Shown here: positions 2,034-15,489 of the stretch, piece by piece
Numbering within the stretch: position 1 is the first letter of the stretch
Layout of the letters: each line of letters starts with the position of its first letter
IMG/VR virus record: IMGVR_UViG_3300008110_000463
Location: 1-22,480 of that record
DNA: 22,480 nt
Origin: a virus
Direction: 5' to 3' (one strand)
Position numbers and translations under genes: made by a program
The notes under the pieces: model-generated
Told to the model about the DNA's origin: nothing
Database searches by the model: none
Seen by the model: only the letters and a program-made list of their open reading frames with translations

Positions 2034-2459
2034 ATGGCAACGTACAATAAATTTCAAGACTTCTCTGAACAGCTTGTTATTGGCACTCATGACTTTGACA
2101 CCAACGTGTTCAAGGTCTACCTGTCCAACACCGTGCCTTCGGCTTCTGCTGATGCGATTAAAGCTGATCTCCCTGAGATTACCGCAGGTAACGGCTACAC
2201 CGCTGGTGGCGCTACCACGACCATTACGGTTGCTGAAGTAACAGGCACTACGACCGTTTCCGGCACTCAGGTAGTGTTCACGGCTTCTGGTGGCGCGATT
2301 GCGGCTTTCCAGTATGTTGTGCTGTACAACGATACCGCTGTTAACAAGAACCTTATCGCGTGGTGGGACTACGGCAGTGCGTTGACGCTTAACAACGGCG
2401 AGTCCTTTACCGTCAAGTTCTCCAACACCACTCCCGGCGCTATCTTCACTCTGGCTTGA
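2034..2459 (+). CDS. Tail-associated beta protein, paralogue of the gene at 15067
   Basis: A 141-residue protein with the order: short helical start (NKFQDFSEQLVIGTHDF), FKVYLSNTVPS, a glycine turn (EITAGNGYTAGG), Thr-rich strands, and a C-terminal half with YVVLYND and FTVKFSN. The same order (GxxxFxxxxFKxxL, then E-x2-AGxGYxAGG, then an LxY strand and a final FxVxF strand) is seen in the 140-residue product of 15067-15489. I therefore call the two paralogues or members of one widespread phage structural family, usually annotated only as hypothetical or tail protein. Its role is probably in virion decoration or tail attachment. It starts one base after the preceding stop. Confidence 0.62.
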   Translation: MATYNKFQDFSEQLVIGTHDFDTNVFKVYLSNTVPSASADAIKADLPEITAGNGYTAGGATTTITVAEVTGTTTVSGTQVVFTASGGAIAAFQYVVLYNDTAVNKNLIAWWDYGSALTLNNGESFTVKFSNTTPGAIFTLA

Positions 2460-3129: not shown

Positions 3130-4899
3130 ATGGCTCTTGGCACCCCAGTAGCCGCAGCAGCAGCCTATTCGGCGCTAAACGGCACCACTGTCACACCGGC
3201 TTATCCGGCGGGCATACTTGCCACTGACGTTGTTCTGCTGTTTGTTGGTCAAAAGCCCGGTAGCGCAAACAGCGGCACTAATCCGGCCCCAAGCGGTTGG
3301 ACGCTCCGCGAGGAGTTAACTGGCGCGGGTGGCTACGGCGCTACGCTGGGTGCTGACACCGGCAACACGAACCTGCGGGTGTTTTCGTGGAATACGCCGA
3401 TTGCGGGACAGACGGGTAACCTGAACGTTTCGCTTGGTAACAGTAACGTCGCGTGGGCGTTTATCGTTCGCATCCCCACGGGCGGCGGTGCGATCAGTTA
3501 CGGATCGGCTGACGGTCAGAGGACGACGACTCCCACCTCACCGATGACGGTGGCGCTGACCAACGGCGCAACAGCAACAAACTTCGAATCGGGTGACCTC
3601 GCCATCTGGGCGATGTGTATCCCGACCGACGTTCAAACTCCGGCTCAGTTCAGCAACCACTTAGCCACGGCGACCGGTGCGACCTTTGCTGCTGGCGTCG
3701 AGATCAACGAACCTGATTCGACCACTGGTAACGACATTGGTGGCTTCAGTGCGTATGCGTCTGTCAGCAGTGGCAGCAGTACGGCAGCACCCAGTGTAAC
3801 GGTCACGCTGGCGGGTACGCTCACCAACGTGCGCGGCCCGGTGGTCATGCTGCGGGTGCGAGAAATCCAAGCGATCTCGTTCAACGCTGAAGTTGGGTCT
3901 TACAGCATCACTGGGCAGGCGGCTACTACTGCCGCTTCACGCTTGTTCAACGCCGAGGCTGGGGCGTATAGCCTGACCGGGCAGGCGGCTACGCTTGCGC
4001 TATCTAAGGAACTTTCTGCTAACTCAGGCTCCTACGCGATCAATGGGCAGGCGGCAGACTTTGTTTTAGCTAAGGCCATCTCCGCTGATGCGGGTTCTTA
4101 TTTACTGACAGGGCAGTTAGCAGCCCTTCTTCGTTCCACTGTTTTTTCTGCCGATACGGGCGCGTATGTAATTACGGGGCAGGCAGCGACTCTTTCCCGC
4201 GCAGCCAACTTTTCCGCTGACGCAGGCACCTACGTTGTCACAGGCCAGCCTGCAAGTTTATTTACCGCTTCGGTATTTAGTGCTGATTCAGGTACGTACA
4301 GTATTACGGGTCAGGCGGCAGATCTTCTGTATGTACCTGTTGCTACGTTTGACGCTGAGTCTGGTAGCTATGCTGTAACGGGGCAAGATGCCACGCTGAT
4401 CCGGGCGCAGATTTTTACCGCAGGGCTCGGTCAGTATTCAATCAGCGAAGACTACGTAGACCCCGGATACAACGAGCCCGGATACACCAGCGGTACTAGT
4501 GCGGCGCTGCTTCGTTCGCTGCTGTTTAATTCTGAGGCGGGCAACTACGCTATCACGGGGCAGGACGCAGGCTTGTCGCTCGACACGCTGCTGAACGCCG
4601 AGGCTGGGGCGTACAATATAAGCGGTCAGGCCGCTTCGCTGCTATCCGCAGCGTCGCTCTTTGCCGATGCGGGCACTTATGCTATAAGCGGTCAGGCCGC
4701 TAGCCTGCTATCAAGTTCACTCTTTAATGCAGCATCTGGTTCGTATTTGATCTCCGGGCAGGATGCTACTCTCTTCCCAGCTACGCTCTATCCCAACCCA
4801 GCCGACGTCCGACAAGGCGTTGTTTACGGGCCCGATGGCATCTATACTGGGACTCTAGTTGTGGGTGGCAACGCTGTAATCTACCTTTTTGACGACTAA
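3130..4899 (+). CDS. Repeat-containing fibre/adhesin-like protein (GxYxITGQ repeats)
   Basis: A 589-residue protein in three parts. Residues 1-250 form a beta-rich domain with YPAGILATDVVLLFVGQKPG and a GWTLREEL turn, a pattern common in phage fibre and virion beta domains. Residues 251-549 hold thirteen units of about 22-24 residues with the core GxYx(I/V/L)(T/S)GQxAxL. Twelve are canonical; the ninth (GQYSISEDYV) is degenerate and followed by a Tyr/Pro/Gly insertion. Residues 550-589 carry VRQGVVYGPDGIYTGTL, a C-terminal motif seen in several phage repeat proteins. No signal peptide or membrane segment is present. The repeats probably form a beta-solenoid or a string of small beta units, giving an extended fibre. 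It lies directly before the six-paralogue array and shares its repeat with the gene just after it. An adhesin or fibre role is inference. Confidence 0.68.
   Translation: MALGTPVAAAAAYSALNGTTVTPAYPAGILATDVVLLFVGQKPGSANSGTNPAPSGWTLREELTGAGGYGATLGADTGNTNLRVFSWNTPIAGQTGNLNVSLGNSNVAWAFIVRIPTGGGAISYGSADGQRTTTPTSPMTVALTNGATATNFESGDLAIWAMCIPTDVQTPAQFSNHLATATGATFAAGVEINEPDSTTGNDIGGFSAYASVSSGSSTAAPSVTVTLAGTLTNVRGPVVMLRVREIQAISFNAEVGSYSITGQAATTAASRLFNAEAGAYSLTGQAATLALSKELSANSGSYAINGQAADFVLAKAISADAGSYLLTGQLAALLRSTVFSADTGAYVITGQAATLSRAANFSADAGTYVVTGQPASLFTASVFSADSGTYSITGQAADLLYVPVATFDAESGSYAVTGQDATLIRAQIFTAGLGQYSISEDYVDPGYNEPGYTSGTSAALLRSLLFNSEAGNYAITGQDAGLSLDTLLNAEAGAYNISGQAASLLSAASLFADAGTYAISGQAASLLSSSLFNAASGSYLISGQDATLFPATLYPNPADVRQGVVYGPDGIYTGTLVVGGNAVIYLFDD
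3880..4776 (+). repeat. Thirteen degenerate GxYxITGQ coding repeats
   Basis: The period is about 66-72 bases. Most units have diverged at synonymous sites, but some keep DNA-level identity: ATAAGCGGTCAGGCCGCT is perfect at 4618-4635 and 4684-4701 (66 bases apart), and AACGCCGAGGCTGGGGCGTA is perfect at 3949-3968 and 4594-4613. This indicates repeat gain or exchange at different times. A further unit with the same core lies in another gene, at about 10597-10638. Confidence 0.85.
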
Positions 4900-4911: not shown

Positions 4912-5718
4912 ATGGCTATCACGAATCTGGACCAAGTAATTGCTGGGGCACAGATCCCTCAGTTCTATATCAAAGCGCTGTCTGGTACGTTGGTTGCTGG
5001 TCGCCCGTACTCCACGTTTTATACAGCGGGCATCCCCGGCCCCGCCGTTGCGCCCACTCCCGGTATTAGCGGCGCGGCACTTACTTCTTACGCAGGGCAG
5101 TTGCCGTTTACCAATCCGGCAAGTGGAAACTCTTATCTGGCCCGCTTTGTTGGCATTTCATCCGCGCAGATCGGCACCGTTACGCTGGCCGATAGGCTCT
5201 GGCATAACAGCGGCATTACAATCACTTCTACCTCTCCGCAGACTGTCAATAGCGTAGCTTTCCCGGCGAGGGATTCCAGTGGCACCGTTAATGGCGCTGG
5301 AGTTGTGCTGGGGGTTGAAGTATCTACCGTGACGGGTGCTGGAACCCCCACAATCACGGTTTCTTATACCAATAGCGTTGGAGCCGCTGGCCGCACGGGC
5401 ACCAATATCATTGCCACGAATGCGACCTCCGCCGCTGGTACGTTCTACCCGATCAGTTTGCAGGCTGGCGACTTGGGCGTGCAGTCAGTTCAGTCCGTTA
5501 CGCTCAGCGCTACATGGACAAGTGGTGTTATTCATCTGGTTGCGTACAGGCCACTTGTATCTGTGCAGTGCCCCGCTTCCGGTTCTGCCGCCGCTGTAGA
5601 CGCGCTGACTAGCGGTATGCCTCGGATGTTTAACAATACGGTACCTTTTGTTATTTTTCTACCCCAAACAACTACTACTACCTCGATTCAAGGATCAATG
5701 ACGGTTACACAGGGGTAA
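4912..5718 (+). CDS. Array paralogue 1 (subgroup A), virion/appendage protein
   Basis: 268 residues. The opening MAITNLDQVIAG is shared in pattern with all six copies. Core motifs are DRLW at about residue 94, QTVNSVAFPARD at 110, SYTNS at 151, GDLGVQSVQS at 186 and AYRP at 211; the chain ends TVTQG. It is beta-rich, Thr/Ser/Gly-rich, and has no signal peptide, membrane segment or catalytic motif. The family matches what I remember as uncharacterised structural proteins of environmental phages, in which DRLWHNSG and a TQG ending recur. It follows the repeat protein by 12 bases, and AAAG upstream of the ATG is a weak ribosome binding site. A virion surface or tail appendage component is likely; the specific role is unknown. 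Confidence 0.72.
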   Translation: MAITNLDQVIAGAQIPQFYIKALSGTLVAGRPYSTFYTAGIPGPAVAPTPGISGAALTSYAGQLPFTNPASGNSYLARFVGISSAQIGTVTLADRLWHNSGITITSTSPQTVNSVAFPARDSSGTVNGAGVVLGVEVSTVTGAGTPTITVSYTNSVGAAGRTGTNIIATNATSAAGTFYPISLQAGDLGVQSVQSVTLSATWTSGVIHLVAYRPLVSVQCPASGSAAAVDALTSGMPRMFNNTVPFVIFLPQTTTTTSIQGSMTVTQG

Positions 5719-5721
5719 GTC

Positions 5722-6561
5722 ATGGCCATCACTACTCTTGCTCAGGCGGCGAGTGGGCTTTTGCCTCCTGTCAACACAATTAAAGTTGACCTTGCGGGGC
5801 CGCTTAGCTCTAACCAAAGTGGATGGATTTCGCTTTGGTATTATGGCGCATACCCTCCTGCGGCAACCTTAAATACTAGTGGGCTAGCCGGGCAGGCGCT
5901 GTATTCCTCCCCCGCTGGGGTGCCTTTTCCAAATCCCCCTAGTGGAAACACTTACTTATCCCGTTTTTCGTCCAGTTTTTGGGCTGAACAGAACGAGCAT
6001 AGTTACTGTTATTATTTATTGGATAGGCTTTGGGAAAATTCTGGCCTTTTACCCGGCGTATTAACCACTCAAACTGTTAACAGCGTCCCGTGGCCCGCTA
6101 GGGATATAAACGGCTCCTCATCAGGTAACGGTGTATATGTAGCGCTTGAGTTTCCTACTTCTACCAGCTCGGGGTTTTCGGTAGAGATTAATTATACCAA
6201 TAGTGTTGGTATAAGCGGGCGTATCGCGCAAAACATTACCCGCCCCAGCAGTATAGCTGCGCTCAAATCGGTAATGCTTTTTGCTCTGGAGGCTGGGGAT
6301 GTAGGTGTCCAGTCTGTACAAAGTGTATCTTTTGCTGCTGGGGGTTGGAGTGGTGGAACCGCTAATTTGTTTGCTTACAGGCCGATTATCATTACGAGTT
6401 CATTTAGCGGAAACACAGTGTTGTCTTCGGAAGAAGACATTTTTAATTTAGCTGCTCCTCGAATATTTGATGATAGTGTACTGATGTACTTAAAATACGT
6501 AATTACGTCAGCTAGTTTAAGCTATTACGATCAAATAAACTATCAGTTTACCCAAGGCTAG
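5722..6561 (+). CDS. Array paralogue 2 (subgroup B), virion/appendage protein
   Basis: 279 residues, starting MAITTLAQAASGLLPP and ending QFTQG. The shared core is present: DRLWENSG, QTVNSVPWPARD, INYTNSVG, GDVGVQSVQS and AYRP. It differs from copy 1 by a Trp-rich stretch (GWISLWYYGAYPP), by Trp in place of Phe in the QTVNSV(F/W)P motif, and by a C-terminal LAAPRIFDDSVL in place of GMPRMFNNTVPF; copy 3 shares all three changes. The gene is visibly more AT-rich than the flanks: by eye count 6001-6060 has 23 G/C of 60 and 6481-6540 has 18 of 60. The ribosome binding site AGGGG sits inside the last codons of copy 1. Function unknown; an appendage role is inferred. Confidence 0.7.
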   Translation: MAITTLAQAASGLLPPVNTIKVDLAGPLSSNQSGWISLWYYGAYPPAATLNTSGLAGQALYSSPAGVPFPNPPSGNTYLSRFSSSFWAEQNEHSYCYYLLDRLWENSGLLPGVLTTQTVNSVPWPARDINGSSSGNGVYVALEFPTSTSSGFSVEINYTNSVGISGRIAQNITRPSSIAALKSVMLFALEAGDVGVQSVQSVSFAAGGWSGGTANLFAYRPIIITSSFSGNTVLSSEEDIFNLAAPRIFDDSVLMYLKYVITSASLSYYDQINYQFTQG

Positions 6562-6563
6562 TC

Positions 6564-7415
6564 GTGGCTATTACTACATTGAGTCAGGCAGTAGACGGTA
6601 TGTTGCCCCCCATAGAGGTGGTAAAACAGCCCCCTACTATTTCCACTCTTGACATGACTTGGAATACTAGCTGGTATAACACTGGCTATCCTACACCGGC
6701 TTCAACGTCGCTATCTGGCACCCTTGCTGGCACTGCACTTACTTCTGCTACAGGCCAAATGCCCTTTACCAACCCCGCAGCGGGCAATACATATTTAGCC
6801 GCTGTTCGCAGAACGTCTAATTCCCCCCCTACTTCTCTGGCCTCTCAAGGTAGTTTTTTTATAATTGACCGTTTATGGGAGAGTTCTGGTACCGCCGCAG
6901 TTTTAACCCCGCAGACAGTTAATAGCGTTACTTGGCCTACCCGTGACATAAACGGTTCCTCTTTAGGAGAGGGGGTATTTGTAGCTCTGGAGATTTATAA
7001 TCCCAGTACCCTCGGCGGTACACTGCCTACTGCGTCCATCTCCTACACTAACAGCGCTGGTGTAAGTGGGCGAGCTGGTGTAATGATGGCGAATGATTTT
7101 GTTACGACCGTAAGGCATTTTGCTATTTATCCGTTTAGTTTAGATTCTGGAGACACGGGCGTTCAGTCTATTCAGACTTTGACTTACCTAACTGACGCAA
7201 ACAGCCGCTTAAGGTTAATTGCGTTTAGGCCAATTTGTATTGTTCCTCCGTTTAATCAAAAAGGTGCGCGTACTGCTGGAGACATCATAACTCTCGCCGC
7301 CCCACGCCTTTTTGATAACTCAGTATTGCAAACTCTGTTTCTCTTCGCGGGTTATTCTTTTGGTTTTCAAGGCGGGGACTCCGGCGCTACAACGATTCAG
7401 TACACTCAGGGCTAA
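6564..7415 (+). CDS. Array paralogue 3 (subgroup B), GTG start
   Basis: 283 residues, the longest copy. It begins at GTG (6564), which gives MAITTLSQAVDGMLPP, aligning exactly with the family start, so the GTG is secure. Core motifs: DRLWESSG, QTVNSVTWPTRD, SYTNSAG, GDTGVQSIQT and AFRP (Phe replacing Tyr of AYR). It shares with copy 2 the WYNTGYPTPAS-type stretch and LAAPRLFDNSVL, so copies 2 and 3 are probably each other's closest relatives in the array. It ends QYTQG. The ribosome binding site CAAGG lies in the last codons of copy 2, six bases plus one from the start. A structural or appendage role is inferred from family and context. Confidence 0.7.
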   Translation: MAITTLSQAVDGMLPPIEVVKQPPTISTLDMTWNTSWYNTGYPTPASTSLSGTLAGTALTSATGQMPFTNPAAGNTYLAAVRRTSNSPPTSLASQGSFFIIDRLWESSGTAAVLTPQTVNSVTWPTRDINGSSLGEGVFVALEIYNPSTLGGTLPTASISYTNSAGVSGRAGVMMANDFVTTVRHFAIYPFSLDSGDTGVQSIQTLTYLTDANSRLRLIAFRPICIVPPFNQKGARTAGDIITLAAPRLFDNSVLQTLFLFAGYSFGFQGGDSGATTIQYTQG

Positions 7416-7418
7416 ATC

Positions 7419-7802
7419 ATGGAACTTAGCAAACAAGAGTTTATCGACCGCTTTACCCATGCGGAGTTTGTCGGGGTTCTGAACTCCGCCAAGACTAACG
7501 TAGACGTAGAGGCGTGGCTTTTCCGGTTTAATAACGTAACTGACAAGATCAACACACTTGATTCACGCACTCTCGCGGGGCTTGACCTACTTGTTACGGC
7601 TGGTGCTTTGACGCAAGCCCGTGCTGATGAGATCTCTGGGCGGGTGTGGGGCGCGTGGACGGTAGGGCAGAACGTGCGTGTTCTCGCTCCATTTGACGTA
7701 ACTTACCCCGGCGAATACCCTATTCAGGAGTTTGATGTCGAGCACGGGACGATCCTCGTGTCTGGTACGTCGTTTGACCCGCAGTACGTGGAGGCTGTGT
7801 AA
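7419..7802 (+). CDS. Two-domain small protein interrupting the array
   Basis: 127 residues, unrelated to the array family. Residues 1-72 are predicted alpha-helical: KQEFIDRFTHAEFVGVL, VEAWLFRFNNV, then LAGLDLLVTAGALTQARADEI. This resembles a short helical protein family often found among phage tail-fibre genes and annotated as hypothetical. Residues about 76-127 look like a small SH3-like barrel: VGQNVRVLAPFDVTYPGEY, then ILVSGTSFDPQYVEAV. It begins three bases after copy 3, with the ribosome binding site AGGG inside that gene's last codons. Copy 4 follows immediately: the stop TAA directly abuts the next ATG, with GGAGG (7793-7797) supplied by this gene. It might be a chaperone or connector for the array proteins; this is inference. 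Confidence 0.62.
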   Translation: MELSKQEFIDRFTHAEFVGVLNSAKTNVDVEAWLFRFNNVTDKINTLDSRTLAGLDLLVTAGALTQARADEISGRVWGAWTVGQNVRVLAPFDVTYPGEYPIQEFDVEHGTILVSGTSFDPQYVEAV

Positions 7803-8618
7803 ATGGCAATCACTAGTATGGATGGGGTAATCGCCGGTGGTAGGCCACCCATTTACTATAGATCTACAATTAGCGGGGGGCTTGGGGAGCCGCCGTGGTT
7901 TACCCCATTTTACTTAGCTAGCATTCCCGGTGCTGCTGCCGCCCCGACTTCGGGCATGTCTGGCACTGCGCTTACTTCTTACCCCGGACAGATTCCATTT
8001 ACCAACCCTCCGGTGGGGCAGTCAACTTATCTTACCCGCTTTTCAGCTAACCCGCTAAGGAGCGGCGGCGGGGCTATGCTGGCGGATAGGCTCTGGCACA
8101 GCAGTGGGATTAACCTAAATACTCCGGCTGTACAGACCGTAAACTCCGTTGCTTTTCCGCCTCGAGATGTAAATCAATCTTCTGACGGAGAGGGCGTTTA
8201 CATCGCAGTTGAGATTGCTACTACTCTTGGGTCAGGTAACGCAGTATTTGAACTGTCCTATACTAACAGCGCGGGCGTCGCGGGACGGCTTGGCTACACC
8301 ATACCGGATAATATTGGATCGAGCCAACCAAGCGGCACTTTCTGTTGTTTTAGTTTGCAGAGCGGGGATTCCGGGGTTAGGTCTGTTCAGTCTATTCGTT
8401 TGACTGCTGGCGGGTATCTAGTTGGGACAATGGGTCTGGTAGCGTATAGGCCGATTTCTTTAATCACCTGTATACCAAACGCCCTTTCTTTGGGCGTAGA
8501 TTGCCTGACCGGGGCCATGCCGGAGTTGTTTAATGACTCAGTGCCATTCCTTGTATTTAGACCGGACACCAATACAGCAACAGAATTTGAATCTTTGATT
8601 GTTTTTTCCCAAGGCTAA
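7803..8618 (+). CDS. Array paralogue 4 (subgroup A), virion/appendage protein
   Basis: 271 residues, starting MAITSMDGVIAGGRPP and ending IVFSQG; this is the only copy with Ser before the final QG. It shares with copies 1 and 5 the block FYxxxIPGxAxAPTxGxSGxALTSYxGQ and the late VPFLVF. Core: ADRLWHSSG, QTVNSVAFPPRD, SYTNSAG, GDSGVRSVQS and AYRP. The N-terminal 40 residues and the region after YTNS vary most, as in the other copies. Translation should start efficiently from GGAGG eight bases upstream. No enzyme motif or membrane segment. Role as for the family: probable virion surface protein, unproven. Confidence 0.7.
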   Translation: MAITSMDGVIAGGRPPIYYRSTISGGLGEPPWFTPFYLASIPGAAAAPTSGMSGTALTSYPGQIPFTNPPVGQSTYLTRFSANPLRSGGGAMLADRLWHSSGINLNTPAVQTVNSVAFPPRDVNQSSDGEGVYIAVEIATTLGSGNAVFELSYTNSAGVAGRLGYTIPDNIGSSQPSGTFCCFSLQSGDSGVRSVQSIRLTAGGYLVGTMGLVAYRPISLITCIPNALSLGVDCLTGAMPELFNDSVPFLVFRPDTNTATEFESLIVFSQG

Positions 8619-8620
8619 TT

Positions 8621-9460
8621 ATGGCTATCGCTAACGTAAACGGAGTAATTGCGGGGTGTCAGCCGGGCGTATTTTTTTATAAAAATTTGTTCGTTCCTGT
8701 TGTGAACAGGCCGTTTTCTTTATTTTATCAGTCAGGGATCCCCGGCCCCGCAGTTGCTCCAACCCCCGGTATTAGTGGAGCGGCACTGACTAGCTATCCG
8801 GGGCAACTACGTTTTGTAAACCCCGGTGCGGGAGAAACCACCTATTTGGCAAGGTTTAGCACCCTCGCTTATAGGGTAACAGGCACTGCTTTGCCTCCCG
8901 GCTCAGTAATGCTGGCAGATAGACTTTGGCATAACAGCGGCATTTCTATTACGTCTTCCGCCTCTCAAGCAGTAAATTCTGTCGCCTTCCCGCCTCGTGA
9001 TGCTAACGGTACCACTAACGGGCTCGCCGTACTTTTGGGCCTAGAGATTAGCACCGCGACCTCTGGTGCAGTGACACCGACAATAACTGTCGAGTACACA
9101 AATGAAAACAACGTAGCCAGAACCATTGCCGGGGGCACTGCGGCTACTACGACACTTCCGACTGGCTCAACCACTGCTGGCACTTTTACTTATTTGAACC
9201 TGTACGGTTCTGATCGAGGCGTCAGGTCAATTCAAAATATTACGTTCACAACCCCCTATAGCAGCGGGGTCGCGCATCTGGTTGCCTACAGAAAGATTGC
9301 CTCTGTCTTGTTGGGTTACGCAGACGTACCAAACGACGTAAACCCTCTAACTGGAGGTATGCCGGTTATGTACGACAATACAGTGCCGTTTGTCGTTATG
9401 ACGCCCACTCAGGATATTGACACTTATTGTCAAGGTATGATGACGGTTACGCAGGGGTAA
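8621..9460 (+). CDS. Array paralogue 5 (subgroup A), virion/appendage protein
   Basis: 279 residues, beginning MAIANVNGVIAGCQPG and ending MTVTQG. It is closest to copy 1: both carry IPGPAVAPTPGISGAALTSY identically, and both have LADRLWHNSGI. Despite identical protein in that block, the DNA differs at many synonymous positions. It deviates from the other copies at QAVNSV (Ala for Thr), at YTNENNVART (the YTNS-G-GR motif is disrupted) and at SDRGVRSIQN (Ser for Gly). These changes in the most conserved motifs suggest relaxed or altered function in this copy. The ribosome binding site CAAGG is in the last codons of copy 4. Function inferred only from family. Confidence 0.7.
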   Translation: MAIANVNGVIAGCQPGVFFYKNLFVPVVNRPFSLFYQSGIPGPAVAPTPGISGAALTSYPGQLRFVNPGAGETTYLARFSTLAYRVTGTALPPGSVMLADRLWHNSGISITSSASQAVNSVAFPPRDANGTTNGLAVLLGLEISTATSGAVTPTITVEYTNENNVARTIAGGTAATTTLPTGSTTAGTFTYLNLYGSDRGVRSIQNITFTTPYSSGVAHLVAYRKIASVLLGYADVPNDVNPLTGGMPVMYDNTVPFVVMTPTQDIDTYCQGMMTVTQG

Positions 9461-9462
9461 GC

Positions 9463-10278
9463 ATGGCTATTTCTACTTTGGATCAGGCAATTACGGGCCT
9501 TCTACCTACCTATTCTTTGTTTAGGAATATAGCTAATCGACAAAACAATGATACTCGAATTCTGTATTCTTTTTTTAGTCCTGGGGTTCAGCCCTCTGCG
9601 GCTTCTGGAAACGTACTTTTAAACTCTGACGCTGGGGCCATACCCTTTTCTAATCCGGTCTCTGGTAATACGTATCTCGCTGGGCTAAAAGTCAGCCCGA
9701 TGAGTAACTTTACGCTTACGTCCAGAAAAATATTAATGGTAGACCGTTTGTGGCACGGACTTCTTTCAAGTACAACCTCCCTGCAAACGGTCAACAGCGT
9801 TACATTCCCGGCTAGAGATAATAACGGCTCAACTAATGGGGATGGAGTATATTTGGCTATTGAAATTGGTCCTACTGGAAACGATGGAGCACCAGATTGG
9901 GGTGTTACTGTAACTTATACAAATAGCGCAGGAGTTGCTGGTAGAACGGCGACAGTGTTGTCCCCTTATGTACAAGGTTTCTCACGAGAATATCGTTGGT
10001 TCCCCCTAAAACTTCAGAGCGGGGACGTTGGGGTTCGTTCTGTCCAAGATGCTACGTTTACTGCGGCAATCGGTGTAAACACTAACATCGTTGCCTATCG
10101 AGTGCTAACACAACTGTATTGTCAGACCACGGCGGACGGTACTGGTGTTGCTGACGTAGTAAGTTTGGGTATGCCAAGAGTTTATAACGGTAGCTACCTC
10201 ATGTTTGTTTACGGAAACTACCTTAATAGCTCAATAGATATCGCCTCTAGTTTTGAAGTAACCTTGACGCAAGGCTAA
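9463..10278 (+). CDS. Array paralogue 6, most divergent copy
   Basis: 271 residues from the ATG at 9463, which yields MAISTLDQAITGLLP and aligns with the family start. An upstream in-frame TTG at 9427 would overlap copy 5 by 34 bases and is not credible. Core motifs: DRLWHG, QTVNSVTFPARD, TYTNSAGVAGR, GDVGVRSVQD and AYR. It lacks both the IPGPAVAPTPG block of copies 1, 4 and 5 and the Trp-rich block of copies 2 and 3, and instead has a Phe/Ser/Tyr-rich stretch (ILYSFFSPGVQPSAAS). It keeps the ending TLTQG. The start is served by AGGGG inside copy 5. Structural role inferred from the family. Confidence 0.7.
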   Translation: MAISTLDQAITGLLPTYSLFRNIANRQNNDTRILYSFFSPGVQPSAASGNVLLNSDAGAIPFSNPVSGNTYLAGLKVSPMSNFTLTSRKILMVDRLWHGLLSSTTSLQTVNSVTFPARDNNGSTNGDGVYLAIEIGPTGNDGAPDWGVTVTYTNSAGVAGRTATVLSPYVQGFSREYRWFPLKLQSGDVGVRSVQDATFTAAIGVNTNIVAYRVLTQLYCQTTADGTGVADVVSLGMPRVYNGSYLMFVYGNYLNSSIDIASSFEVTLTQG

Positions 10279-10281
10279 AAC

Positions 10282-10890
10282 ATGCTTGGTTACGGCGCAT
10301 TCCCTACTACATCCTCGTGGTGGTCCACAGGGACGCCGCTTTTACGCCCCGTTATCGCTTTTGGCGACTTAACCAACGTAGAAGGGGTCTCTCAGTCTGA
10401 GTGGTTTTTCGGCCCTGTTGTTTACGAGGACGCTGGTTTAGGCGCGTACCCACTAAGCTCTGCTTGGACTGGGGTAACTAGTGGGTATTTTGCGCGGCAG
10501 GTTCTTAACTTTTCTGACCTAGATGACGTAGAAGGTAGCACCCAGTCCCTTTGGTTTTTTGGGGAGTACGTCCCCGTCGCTCCGACTTTGGATCTGGAAG
10601 TTGGGTCTTACAGTATTACAGGGGAAGCCGCTGAGCTTGTCCGTACGGGGATTTTGCCGACGGATAACTACATCTCCGAGGCTACTAGTGGTGTATCGAC
10701 TCTCTCCAACACCATGGAGAGCTTCTTTACCATGGCGGAAAACGCATCTGCTGCCGATACCATCACCAACGCCAAAGTAATAGATGTTGCTATGAGCGAG
10801 GGCGCTACGGCGGAAGATACTCCGGGCCGTACATGGAACCCAATCAACACCCCGCAAACGACAACGTGGACGCTCATTCAGACCCCTTGA
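10282..10890 (+). CDS. Mosaic repeat protein closing the array region
   Basis: 202 residues made of modules. Residues 2-44 and 53-94 are an internal duplication: LGYGAFP...FGDLTNVEG...SQSEWFFG and LGAYPLS...FSDLDDVEG...TQSLWFFG. Residues 108-119 are a single GSYSITGEAAEL unit of the repeat seen twelve-plus times in the protein at 3130. Residues about 130-185 are Ser/Thr/Glu/Asp-rich (ASAADTIT, SEGATAEDT), a pattern common in phage repeat regions. The C-terminus WNPINTPQTTTWTLIQTP is a short aromatic/Thr motif seen at the ends of phage structural proteins. It starts three bases after copy 6. Probably a fibre or decoration protein that functions with the array; this is inference. Confidence 0.62.
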   Translation: MLGYGAFPTTSSWWSTGTPLLRPVIAFGDLTNVEGVSQSEWFFGPVVYEDAGLGAYPLSSAWTGVTSGYFARQVLNFSDLDDVEGSTQSLWFFGEYVPVAPTLDLEVGSYSITGEAAELVRTGILPTDNYISEATSGVSTLSNTMESFFTMAENASAADTITNAKVIDVAMSEGATAEDTPGRTWNPINTPQTTTWTLIQTP

Positions 10891-12401: not shown

Positions 12402-12631
12402 AAGCCCCCCAGCAGTCACTAAAAAACTGGACTGCTCAGAAATGGCGCACGAAGTCAGGCAAACCCTCAAGCGAGACTGGCGAGCGATACCTTCCCGTAA
12501 ACGCGATCAAGTCCCTGTCCCCCGCCGAGTACGCTGCGACCACCCGCGCTAAACGCGCTGGCAAGGCCAAAGGCAAGCAGTTTGTATCTCAGCCTAAGAC
12601 CATAGCCAAAAAGACTGCAAGGTTTAGATAA
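12398..12631 (+). CDS. Conserved basic phage protein (GERYLP family)
   Basis: 77 residues from GTG 12398, overlapping the preceding stop by four bases. Conserved blocks are LKNWTAQKWRTKSGKPS, TGERYLPVNAIKSL, EYAATTRAKRAG and GKQFVSQPKTIAKKTARFR. This block order is recurrent in phages and large viruses as an uncharacterised protein; a DUF5872-like assignment is plausible but not verified. About a third of residues are Lys or Arg, so nucleic-acid binding is likely. The stop TAA overlaps the ATG of the adaptor gene (TAATG), so the small basic genes and the adaptor are probably co-translated. Confidence 0.7.
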   Translation: MKAPQQSLKNWTAQKWRTKSGKPSSETGERYLPVNAIKSLSPAEYAATTRAKRAGKAKGKQFVSQPKTIAKKTARFR

Positions 12632-13560
12632 TGTCTACGACAGGCACCTCGACGTTTAATCTGGACATCAACGATCTCATTGAAGAGGCGTTTGAGAGGT
12701 GCGGCCAAGAACTTCGCACGGGTTATGACTTCCGCACGGCTCGACGCAGCCTGAACCTTCTGACTATTGAGTGGGCAAATCGCGGTATCAACCTGTGGAC
12801 GATTGAGCAAGGCCAGCTTCCGCTGTACCCCAACCAAGCAATCTACTCCTTGCCTGTGGACACCATTGATCTTCTGGATCACGTAGTCCGAACGGGAACT
12901 GGTACAAATCAGATCGACATCAGCATCAACAGGATCTCGGAGTCCACGTACTCTACGATCCCTAACAAGAACGCTACGGGTCGCCCGATTCAGGTGTGGA
13001 TCAATCGTCAGTCTGGCGAGTCCAACACAACCACGGCTACGCTGACTTCTACGATTGGTTCTACCGATACTACGATTGCCGTTACCGGCGCTTCGTCTTT
13101 GCCGTCCGCAGGGTTTATCAAGCTGGACAACGAAACGATTGGGTACTCGGCCATCAGTGGCAATAACTTGCTCTACTGTGGTCGTGGACAGAACGGCACT
13201 ACGGCGGCATCTCACACCGCTGGCGCTAGCGTTACACTTCAGAACTTGCCAAACATCAATATCTGGCCTGTGCCCAATCAAGGCGCAGTGGGTAACGCCT
13301 ACTACACGCTCGTCTACTGGCGCATGCGCCGTATGCAGGACGCTGGTACGGGCACGAAGACTCAGGACATTCCGTTCAGGTTCATCGAATGCATGGTCGC
13401 TGGGCTTGCGTATAAGATGGCAATGAAACTGCCGAACATGGACCCCGGTCGCATGGCCGTGCTTAAAGCAGAGTATGACCAGCAGTGGCAACTCGCTTCC
13501 GATGAAGACCGGGATAAAGCGAGCCTTCGCTTCGTCCCACGCTCTATGTTCTATGCCTGA
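12631..13560 (+). CDS. Head-tail adaptor / tail tubular A-like protein
   Basis: 309 residues. The N-terminus (LDINDLIEEAFERCGQEL, TGYDFRTARRSLNLLTIEW) is the helical signature of podovirus adaptor proteins of the T7 gp11 and P22 gp4 type, which form a ring beneath the portal. It continues QGQLPLYPNQAIYSLPVDTIDLLDHV and, near the end, a helical PFRFIECMVAGLAYKMAMKL with YDQQWQLASDEDRDKAS. Residues about 135-204 are an inserted beta domain (IGSTDTTIAVTG, FIKLDNETIGY, CGRGQNGTTAASHTAGA) absent from minimal adaptors and similar to small phage decoration modules. The length exceeds the typical 200-240 residues by about this insert. Starts with TAATG overlap. Confidence 0.8.
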   Translation: MSTTGTSTFNLDINDLIEEAFERCGQELRTGYDFRTARRSLNLLTIEWANRGINLWTIEQGQLPLYPNQAIYSLPVDTIDLLDHVVRTGTGTNQIDISINRISESTYSTIPNKNATGRPIQVWINRQSGESNTTTATLTSTIGSTDTTIAVTGASSLPSAGFIKLDNETIGYSAISGNNLLYCGRGQNGTTAASHTAGASVTLQNLPNINIWPVPNQGAVGNAYYTLVYWRMRRMQDAGTGTKTQDIPFRFIECMVAGLAYKMAMKLPNMDPGRMAVLKAEYDQQWQLASDEDRDKASLRFVPRSMFYA

Positions 13561-14101: not shown

Positions 14102-14367
14102 TGGCTAAGTTCAGCATGAAGGTTAAGGGCAAAGAGATCGGCCCAGCTTACGTTTATGCGCCTCCGCATACGATGCAGGGCAGCGAGAATATTGACCTGA
14201 GCAACTCTGGCTACGGTAAAGGCAATCGTTACCGCGCTAACGATGTCAACATGAGTGTTGGTAATATCGCCCGTAATGACTATGCTGAGCCTAAGACTGC
14301 GGGTACCAAGACTCGTGGTAACGGTGCTGCGATCAAGGGCGTTACTGCTCGGGGACCGATGGCGTGA
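14101..14367 (+). CDS. Small conserved phage protein
   Basis: 88 residues, basic and Gly/Asn-rich: FSMKVKGKEIGPAYVYAPPH, then IDLSNSGYGKGNRYRAND, NIARNDYAEPKTAG and a final GVTARGPMA. No membrane segment, Cys or enzyme motif. The start ATG overlaps the previous stop by one base and the GTGA at its end overlaps the next start by four bases, so it is embedded in a translationally coupled string. The N-terminal KxxGKEIGPAxVYAxPHTM resembles small proteins in related phages. Function unknown. Confidence 0.65.
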   Translation: MAKFSMKVKGKEIGPAYVYAPPHTMQGSENIDLSNSGYGKGNRYRANDVNMSVGNIARNDYAEPKTAGTKTRGNGAAIKGVTARGPMA

Positions 14368-15065
14368 ACTATAGCGAGTTGTCTGGGGCTATCCAGAGTT
14401 ATACGGAAAACCAATTTCCAGATACTTATCTGGCGGATGGTTCGACGGTTTCGTCAGCCACCCAGATCGCTCGCTTTGTTCGACAAGCTGAGCAGCGGAT
14501 TTACAACTCGGTTCAGTTCCCCTCCCTACGTAAAAACGTAACGGGGTATGTGGGTGTATCTAATAAGTACCTCGCTTGTCCAGACGACTTTCTGGCCGTG
14601 TACTCTCTCGCTGTTGTTGATAACGACGGTTCGTACGAGTACCTGCTTAACAAAGATGTTAATTACATCCGTCAGGCGTACCCCAGCCCTACTGATACTG
14701 GCAAGCCCAAGTATTACGCTTTATTCGGCCCGTACGTTCTGGACGAAGTTATTTCCCGCGAACTAGCGTTTATCTTCGGGCCAACTCCTAGCGGTGCATA
14801 TCAACTGGAGTTGCACTACTACTATTACCCAGAGTCGATCACAACGGCTTCTTCTGGGCAGTCTTGGCTAGGCGACAATTTTGATTCTGTGCTTCTGTAC
14901 GGCTCTCTTGTTGAGGCGTACACCTTTATGAAGGGCGAAGCCGATCTCGTCGCTCTATATGAGACGAAATACAAAGAAGCCCTTGCCCTTGCTAAACGTC
15001 TTGGGGATGGTATGGAGCGTCAGGATGCGTATCGTTCTGGACAATACCGCCAGCCGGTGACCTGA
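14364..15065 (+). CDS. Second adaptor / neck protein
   Basis: 233 residues from GTG 14364. The N-terminus MNYSELSGAIQSYTENQFPD, the helix TQIARFVRQAEQRIYNSVQFP, then KNVTGYVGVSNKYLACPDDFLAVYSL and a C-terminal helix rich in Ala/Lys (VALYETKYKEALALAKRLGDG) match phage head-tail connector or adaptor-like proteins commonly found beside the T7 gp11-like protein in environmental podoviruses. The pattern WLGDNFDSVLLYGSLVEAYTFMKGE is also typical of these. It probably forms part of the neck ring between portal and nozzle. No insert like that of the 12631 gene is seen. Assigned by motif and context. Confidence 0.72.
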   Translation: MNYSELSGAIQSYTENQFPDTYLADGSTVSSATQIARFVRQAEQRIYNSVQFPSLRKNVTGYVGVSNKYLACPDDFLAVYSLAVVDNDGSYEYLLNKDVNYIRQAYPSPTDTGKPKYYALFGPYVLDEVISRELAFIFGPTPSGAYQLELHYYYYPESITTASSGQSWLGDNFDSVLLYGSLVEAYTFMKGEADLVALYETKYKEALALAKRLGDGMERQDAYRSGQYRQPVT

Positions 15066-15066
15066 T

Positions 15067-15489
15067 ATGGCCCTTATTCAAACCGCTACCAACGCATTCA
15101 AGACAGGCTTGGCGACAGGCTCGTACAACTTTGCGTCTGATACGTTTAAAATCGCGTTGTATACGAGCGCTGCTAGTCTGGATGAGACCACAGCGGCGTA
15201 CACTTCTGTAGGGGAAGTTGTTGCTGGTGGATATGTGGCAGGTGGAGAAGCGCTGACTGTATCTCTAGCGCCCACTGTGGGTACGTCTGGGAATATTGCG
15301 TACTTGTCGTTTAGCAACGCTTCTTGGACGGCGGCGATTACTGCTCGCGGCGCGTTGATTTACAAAGTAGCGGCGGGTAACCCCACTGTATGTGTGCTGG
15401 ATTTTGGGGCGGACAAAACGTCTACTTCTACATTTCAGGTGCAGTTCCCCCCTGCGTCCAACACCAGCGCTATCATCCGAATTAGCTAA
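15067..15489 (+). CDS. Tail-associated beta protein, paralogue of the gene at 2034
   Basis: 140 residues. Helical start (TATNAFKTGLATGSYNF), then TFKIALYTSAASLDETTAAY, VGEVVAGGYVAGGEALTVS, a Trp-containing strand (FSNASWTAAITARGALIYK) and a final FQVQFPPASNTSAIIR. This is a recurrent phage family annotated as hypothetical or tail protein. It matches the 141-residue protein at 2034 in length and block order, with FKxxL, AGxGYxAGG or AGGYxAGG, and a late FxVxF. The two genes lie 13 kb apart, one on either side of the six-paralogue array. Probably a virion beta-sandwich component. Starts one base after the previous stop. Confidence 0.68.
   Translation: MALIQTATNAFKTGLATGSYNFASDTFKIALYTSAASLDETTAAYTSVGEVVAGGYVAGGEALTVSLAPTVGTSGNIAYLSFSNASWTAAITARGALIYKVAAGNPTVCVLDFGADKTSTSTFQVQFPPASNTSAIIRIS

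Follow-up and report, generated by a model that had tools for sequence, protein, structure and literature searches.

A six-gene array in an uncultured short-tailed phage amplifies one part of a mobile cassette and most likely serves host-surface recognition

Results

The six-gene array

The six related genes at positions 4912-10278 of the window (the 22,480-nucleotide stretch analysed here, positions 1 to 22,480 of IMG/VR record IMGVR_UViG_3300008110_000463) represent a genuine and unusual case in which one part of a mobile structural gene cassette has been amplified; the cassette most likely serves host-surface recognition. The window is a fragment of the genome of an uncultured short-tailed phage, as judged by matches to the gp10-type stabilisation protein phrog_3287 and to the SU10 adaptor. 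The left edge encodes the C-terminus of an apparent major capsid protein, which matches the corresponding place in relative L024 at 58% and has a 302-aa ORF as its apparent counterpart in L007. A small beta-rich gene (347-826) follows directly, in the place that the cement gene occupies in phage Pam1. The array (Table 1) lies between these head genes and the adaptor genes, a position that makes the copies probable virion proteins, as they were labelled in the first-pass annotation. Two different proteins, encoded at 12631-13560 and 14364-15065, ~0.8 kb apart, match the SU10_adaptor Pfam family.

Table 1. Coordinates of the array and of the genes discussed with it.
Feature	Position	Strand	Size or start	Description
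p141	2034-2459	+		phrog_644; a protein of the same size class adjoins the family gene in relatives
R589	3130-4899	+		upstream neighbour; 12 ITGQ-type repeats, mostly 22 residues apart
Copy A	4912-5718	+	268 aa	conserved, slow member; orthologue of copy 1 in relatives
Copy B	5722-6561	+	279 aa	fast-evolving, sister of C
Copy C	6564-7415	+	283 aa, GTG start	fast-evolving, sister of B
X127	7419-7802	+	127 aa	unrelated gene between C and D
Copy D	7803-8618	+	271 aa	long branch, placement unsure
Copy E	8621-9460	+	279 aa	apparently younger, fast-diverging sister of A
Copy F	9463-10278	+	271 aa	long branch, placement unsure
p202	10282-10890	+		downstream partner; two ~45-aa N-terminal motifs (GxGxxPxxSSW...DWFF) and one 22-aa ITGQ-type repeat
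p140	15067-15489	+		in the same size class as p141; lies ~5 kb past the array

That the six genes are paralogues, as first proposed, was borne out. All are full length, without stops and transcribed in one direction, their products share 31-55% pairwise identity over the full length, and 44 alignment positions are invariant across them. When copy A was used as a query against its own record, the other five copies were retrieved at E values of 4e-41 to 4e-76, far beyond chance. The motifs DRLW, QxVNSVxxPxRD, YTN and DxGVxSxQ occur in the same order in all six, whereas AYR, also listed as universal, is present in five and is replaced by AFR in C. The common start and end signatures were confirmed as MAI and (T/S)QG, respectively, in every copy, and the QTVNSV/QAVNSV block is indeed encoded by six different 18-mers, one per copy. 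The description of the genes as tandem needs to be amended, as they form one array but are split 3+3 by X127. The start of F was set at 9463; a longer frame from the TTG at 9427 would run into E and would not begin with MAI.

The terminal codons of the copies have the form acN-caR-ggN and are followed by a stop and, usually 3 nt later, by the next start, an arrangement that recurs across most of the family. It places AGGGG or AAGG at ribosome-binding distance, and hence the conservation of the shared end may partly reflect a role in translating the gene that follows. Each duplicated unit would thereby bring a start signal for its neighbour. Promoter and terminator scans found no excess over shuffled sequences in the array.

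Scans of the six copies against Pfam and PHROGs gave matches only at chance level or below the curated cut-off, and a search of the PDB with the sequence profile of the family returned nothing. Searches with B, C or F as the sole query, which reach close relatives only, retrieved nothing but the same phage.

Three records, assembled separately and 99.8% identical, represent the same phage, and the six-copy array is intact in each. The genes from A through p202 (4912-10890) have zero nucleotide differences among the three records, compared with 23-34 differences elsewhere. Fifteen of the differences fall in a 522-bp gene at 1175-1696.

Age and relationships of the copies

For most pairs of copies, mismatch at four-fold degenerate sites is at or close to the random expectation (near saturation). 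The clearest exception is A-E (0.57 against 0.74 expected), and C-D and E-F are somewhat below expectation. Copy E is therefore either a younger copy of A or was partly converted, and the earlier statement that there is no sign of recent copying or conversion has to be qualified accordingly. The dN of A-E is 0.41, with synonymous sites near saturation; dN/dS ratios of the copies are unreliable because synonymous sites are too saturated.

In the tree, copy A groups with copy 1 of related phages (support 99/98) on a branch of 0.18-0.20, as compared with 1.0-1.3 for B, C, D and F, and it is 74% identical to its orthologue in L009. Copy E is placed as a faster sister of A. B and C are sisters (support 100/99); together they join copy 2 of L009, L020 and L022 (support 92/96). 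The long branches of D and F limit confidence in their placement. Constraining the six copies to a single clade costs 51 log units (AU test, p = 0.0008), and a lineage-specific burst is thus rejected. At least one duplication must be older than the split from relatives of the L009/L020/L022 type, or copies were acquired horizontally; the A/E and B/C duplications are later. Duplication of a block of three, A-B-C to D-E-F, is also rejected because the copies pair as A/E and B/C. The view that the copies are paralogues of a structural-type protein, old and deeply diverged, is hence supported.

Family duplications have occurred repeatedly and independently in other lineages (L013, L073 and L085). 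These events, the younger age of E and the long branches of B, C, D and F would be expected if the extra copies were a drifting by-product of repeated unequal crossing-over, with only A of importance and B-F dispensable and decaying. However, all six copies have remained full length and free of stops with 44 invariant positions, dN for A-E is 0.41 with synonymous sites near saturation, duplications predate the lineage, and the whole array is identical in three records. Neutral genes of 800 bp would also be expected to be lost under phage genome-size pressure. Drift is consequently regarded as quite unlikely. The segments that vary most among orthologues, at about residues 21-40, 161-180 and 221-260, are also variable among A-F.

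Distribution and copy number of the family

A family profile was built from 74 members, and copies A-F match it over their full length (E 2e-77 to 4e-129, near-identical record G001). In a scan of IMG/VR, 363 stretches matched the family, which is common in uncultured tailed phages. Members were also found in Rhodobacter capsulatus phages, a Pseudanabaena phage, Virus Rctr197k and a Rubrivivax pictus genome; none was present in the plasmid collection. In MW202795, no CDS is annotated for the family gene (L101:3453-4259) in the deposited record.

Among 65 whole records, a set that includes several near-duplicates or fragments, 47 carry one copy, 15 carry two (one of these being a bacterial assembly whose two copies lie on different contigs), two carry three, and one carries six. 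A search for phages with one to six copies, as had been proposed, thus recovered a series of one, two, three and six, and the array is the most extreme amplification found, six copies being seen only in the window's phage.

This series bears on the suggestion that the number six fits a six-fold tail. Six divergent, full-length copies transcribed in one direction could form a hetero-oligomeric ring or six-part complex with one position per copy, but the relatives manage with one, two or three, and evolutionary rates differ widely, with one slow copy and five that are fast or derived. In podoviruses, tail adaptors usually have 12-fold symmetry, and no observation links a count of six to the tail. 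Six equal partners are therefore not indicated, and a ring of this kind is considered highly improbable.

Cassette context in related phages

As judged by gene order in relatives, the family takes the central position in a mobile cassette, in which a ~135-aa virion-type protein is followed by the family gene, usually in one copy, and by a payload of variable length. The ~135-aa gene that precedes the family in many relatives belongs to phrog_3758 ('virion structural protein'), phrog_10467 or phrog_644, and portal genes of several unrelated families lie upstream of it. In isolates Seuss, CKB-S1 and Papyrus, a phrog_3758-like gene is found beside tail-tip or baseplate genes. Comparison of the PDB with the profile of the ~135-aa proteins gave leads only, namely 'tail wing arm gp31' (E 0.06) and, from phage 7-7-1, a structural protein of 141 aa (E 0.5). 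In L016, L023, L078, L088, L104 and L105, a large upstream gene ends in an APSSPxxGDLWVDTN-like peptide, which in most of these records immediately precedes the family gene.

The gene after the family typically starts 7 bp past the last family codon. Its product carries an N-terminal motif of ~45 aa, GxGxxPFxSSW...DxDxxExxVWxDWFF, in about 40 loci, in proteins of 88 to 863 aa, and payloads in which the motif was not detected can be longer, up to 1742 aa. Most payloads had no match in Pfam, and recognisable enzyme domains were seen in few. In the complete genome of ctCJ8213 (MW202738, L111), a ~146-aa gene and two family copies are directly followed by an alginate lyase (Alginate_lyase PF05426, E 1.3e-18), and the payload directly after the family copy in L028 matches Polysacc_deac_1 (E 3e-17). 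The payload in L030 contains a match to the 'tail protein' phrog_6079, and in L010 a lectin-like Laminin_G_3 domain (E 4e-7) is encoded three genes downstream.

The window holds a rearranged form of this cassette. The motif is present in p202, which starts a few bases after F, where it is doubled, while it is single in the relatives examined. The gene directly upstream of A is R589 and not a ~135-aa gene; p141 lies three genes upstream of A, X127 precedes D, and the array is flanked by R589 and p202. The repeat type of R589 recurs in the downstream protein of L010 and, as three repeats with a 22-residue spacing, before the alginate lyase of ctCJ8213. The first family copy is immediately preceded by X127 in L009, L010, L014 and L020-L022; in L063, X127 lies nearby. 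In L024, only the C-terminal part of X127 precedes the family copy, and a similar short protein is present there in L048. The proteins p141 and p140, which flank the array at a distance, are 28% identical, and p140-like genes are present in Caulobacter, Roseobacter and Pelagibacter phages. A correspondence between motif count and family copy number was considered and fails, as two- and three-copy phages still have one motif.

The first-pass annotation could not see that most relatives have one copy, that the array lies in the middle of a cassette, or that part of the end signature doubles as a putative ribosome-binding site.

Predicted structure

The AF2 model of copy A is all-beta (pLDDT 96, pTM 0.92). 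In BFVD, it matches unannotated phage homologues with TM 0.75-0.90. Copy F, modelled as a read-through fusion with p202, has the elements of A in the same sequence, and the BFVD entries it matches are those matched by A. The concern that the copies would prove structurally unrelated beyond short motifs therefore does not apply to F, as far as the predictions go. In the fusion model, the motif part has low confidence, with only a short helix at 305-316, and is not docked on F.

The solved structures closest to the copy A model are XepA (Z 5.9), the cement proteins of KHP40 (5.5) and Pam1 (5.2), and the long tail fibre of 7-7-1 and PRD1 P5 (both 5.1). With all Z scores below 6, these matches indicate a jelly-roll-like fold at most, at a generic level. 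The cement proteins and fibre heads of KHP40, Pam1, 7-7-1 (gp015, described as a jelly roll) and PRD1 P5 would thus resemble the family model in broad fold class, with about 100-115 of 268 residues aligned at 4-11% identity. For the TNF/C1q-like class of trimeric jelly rolls, the observations were likewise an all-beta model with top Z values of 5-6 to several jelly-roll proteins. The top PDB matches from Foldseek, to birnavirus VP2, were rejected (TM about 0.2, rmsd about 20 Å).

The weak matches to the KHP40 and Pam1 proteins, together with the placement of the family downstream of the major capsid protein both here and in MW202795, are what would be expected of a capsid decoration (cement) family, in which jelly-roll trimers would sit on the head and the individual copies would occupy different symmetry sites. 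However, the beta-rich gene at 347-826 already fills the place of the Pam1 cement gene, and in relatives it is often portal or tail-tip genes, not the capsid gene, that precede the family. To our knowledge, cement proteins do not travel with alginate lyase or deacetylase genes. A decoration role is hence judged unlikely.

The family also occurs in Rhodobacter capsulatus phages, where RcZahn 40 and RcPescado 13 are members (HMM E about 1e-28 to 1e-30). Gene 40 of RcZahn follows tail-tip genes, and genes 37-41 are present in all RcD phages with their order kept and functions unassigned (PMC8601537). The member in RcPescado is near the DNA polymerase gene, a non-structural location that would suit a non-virion role, for example as an assembly chaperone or secreted factor of a late operon. 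The rigid all-beta fold and the structural-operon context, which is consistent in most records, argue against such a role, and it is thought very unlikely.

Discussion

Taken on balance, we slightly favour the interpretation that copies A-F represent six versions of a host-surface adhesin or adaptor belonging to a fibre or depolymerase appendage, drawn from an all-beta mobile-cassette family; the virion location, the binding and the distinct roles of the copies are part of that interpretation. The family protein would be an adhesin or adaptor subunit of an appendage attached to the tail or head, and its likeliest role would be recognition of the host surface, probably of polysaccharide. Copy A may keep the ancestral role under strong constraint, while B-F, arising from several duplications of different age, would have diverged most in loop-rich segments and may differ either in the surface groups that they recognise or in the payloads that they hold. 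The proposed link to polysaccharide comes from neighbours in relatives and not from proteins of the window, where no lyase was recognised next to the array. The adhesin or assembly role put forward in the first-pass annotation fits the cassette context as a putative function.

A three-gene module of Alishewanella phage LSH1, gp34-gp36, is present or absent as a unit among related genomes and comprises an Ig-like protein, a dimeric fibril protein matching 8JOU_g of Ralstonia phage GP4, and a lyase-like payload (PMC13243795). The products were termed virion proteins by the authors, who proposed an attachment protein, a fibril and a lyase-like payload (PMC13243795). By description, this would be the closest published parallel to the cassette, although the LSH1 module is single copy and the window family has six. 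RcZahn genes 37-41 and RcD genes 10-14 include true members of the family, by profile match, inside a conserved gene order, again with a single copy as against six in the window. The receptor-binding proteins of Ackermannviridae are long tail spikes with different receptor-binding or enzyme parts, unlike the window copies, in which the whole 270-aa protein is conserved. In a published account, the branched tailspike complex of these phages is described as giving one phage several receptor-binding proteins for different host polysaccharides (PMC11414711).

A more specific form of the adhesin interpretation, in which six jelly-roll subunits specialised from one adaptor make up a heteromeric multi-ligand attachment apparatus, with anchoring motifs shared in the doubled form in p202, is offered tentatively and is rather unlikely as a whole. 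If true, a short-tailed phage could present several polysaccharide-binding or polysaccharide-degrading specificities at once.

Although the family is widespread among tailed phages of the environment, it has no entry in Pfam or PHROGs and is sometimes unannotated. A cassette placed beside polysaccharide lyases suggests, for an entire class of 'hypothetical' proteins, a function that can be tested, and the series of one, two, three and six copies offers a natural experiment in which the multiplication and specialisation of host-recognition parts by phages can be followed.
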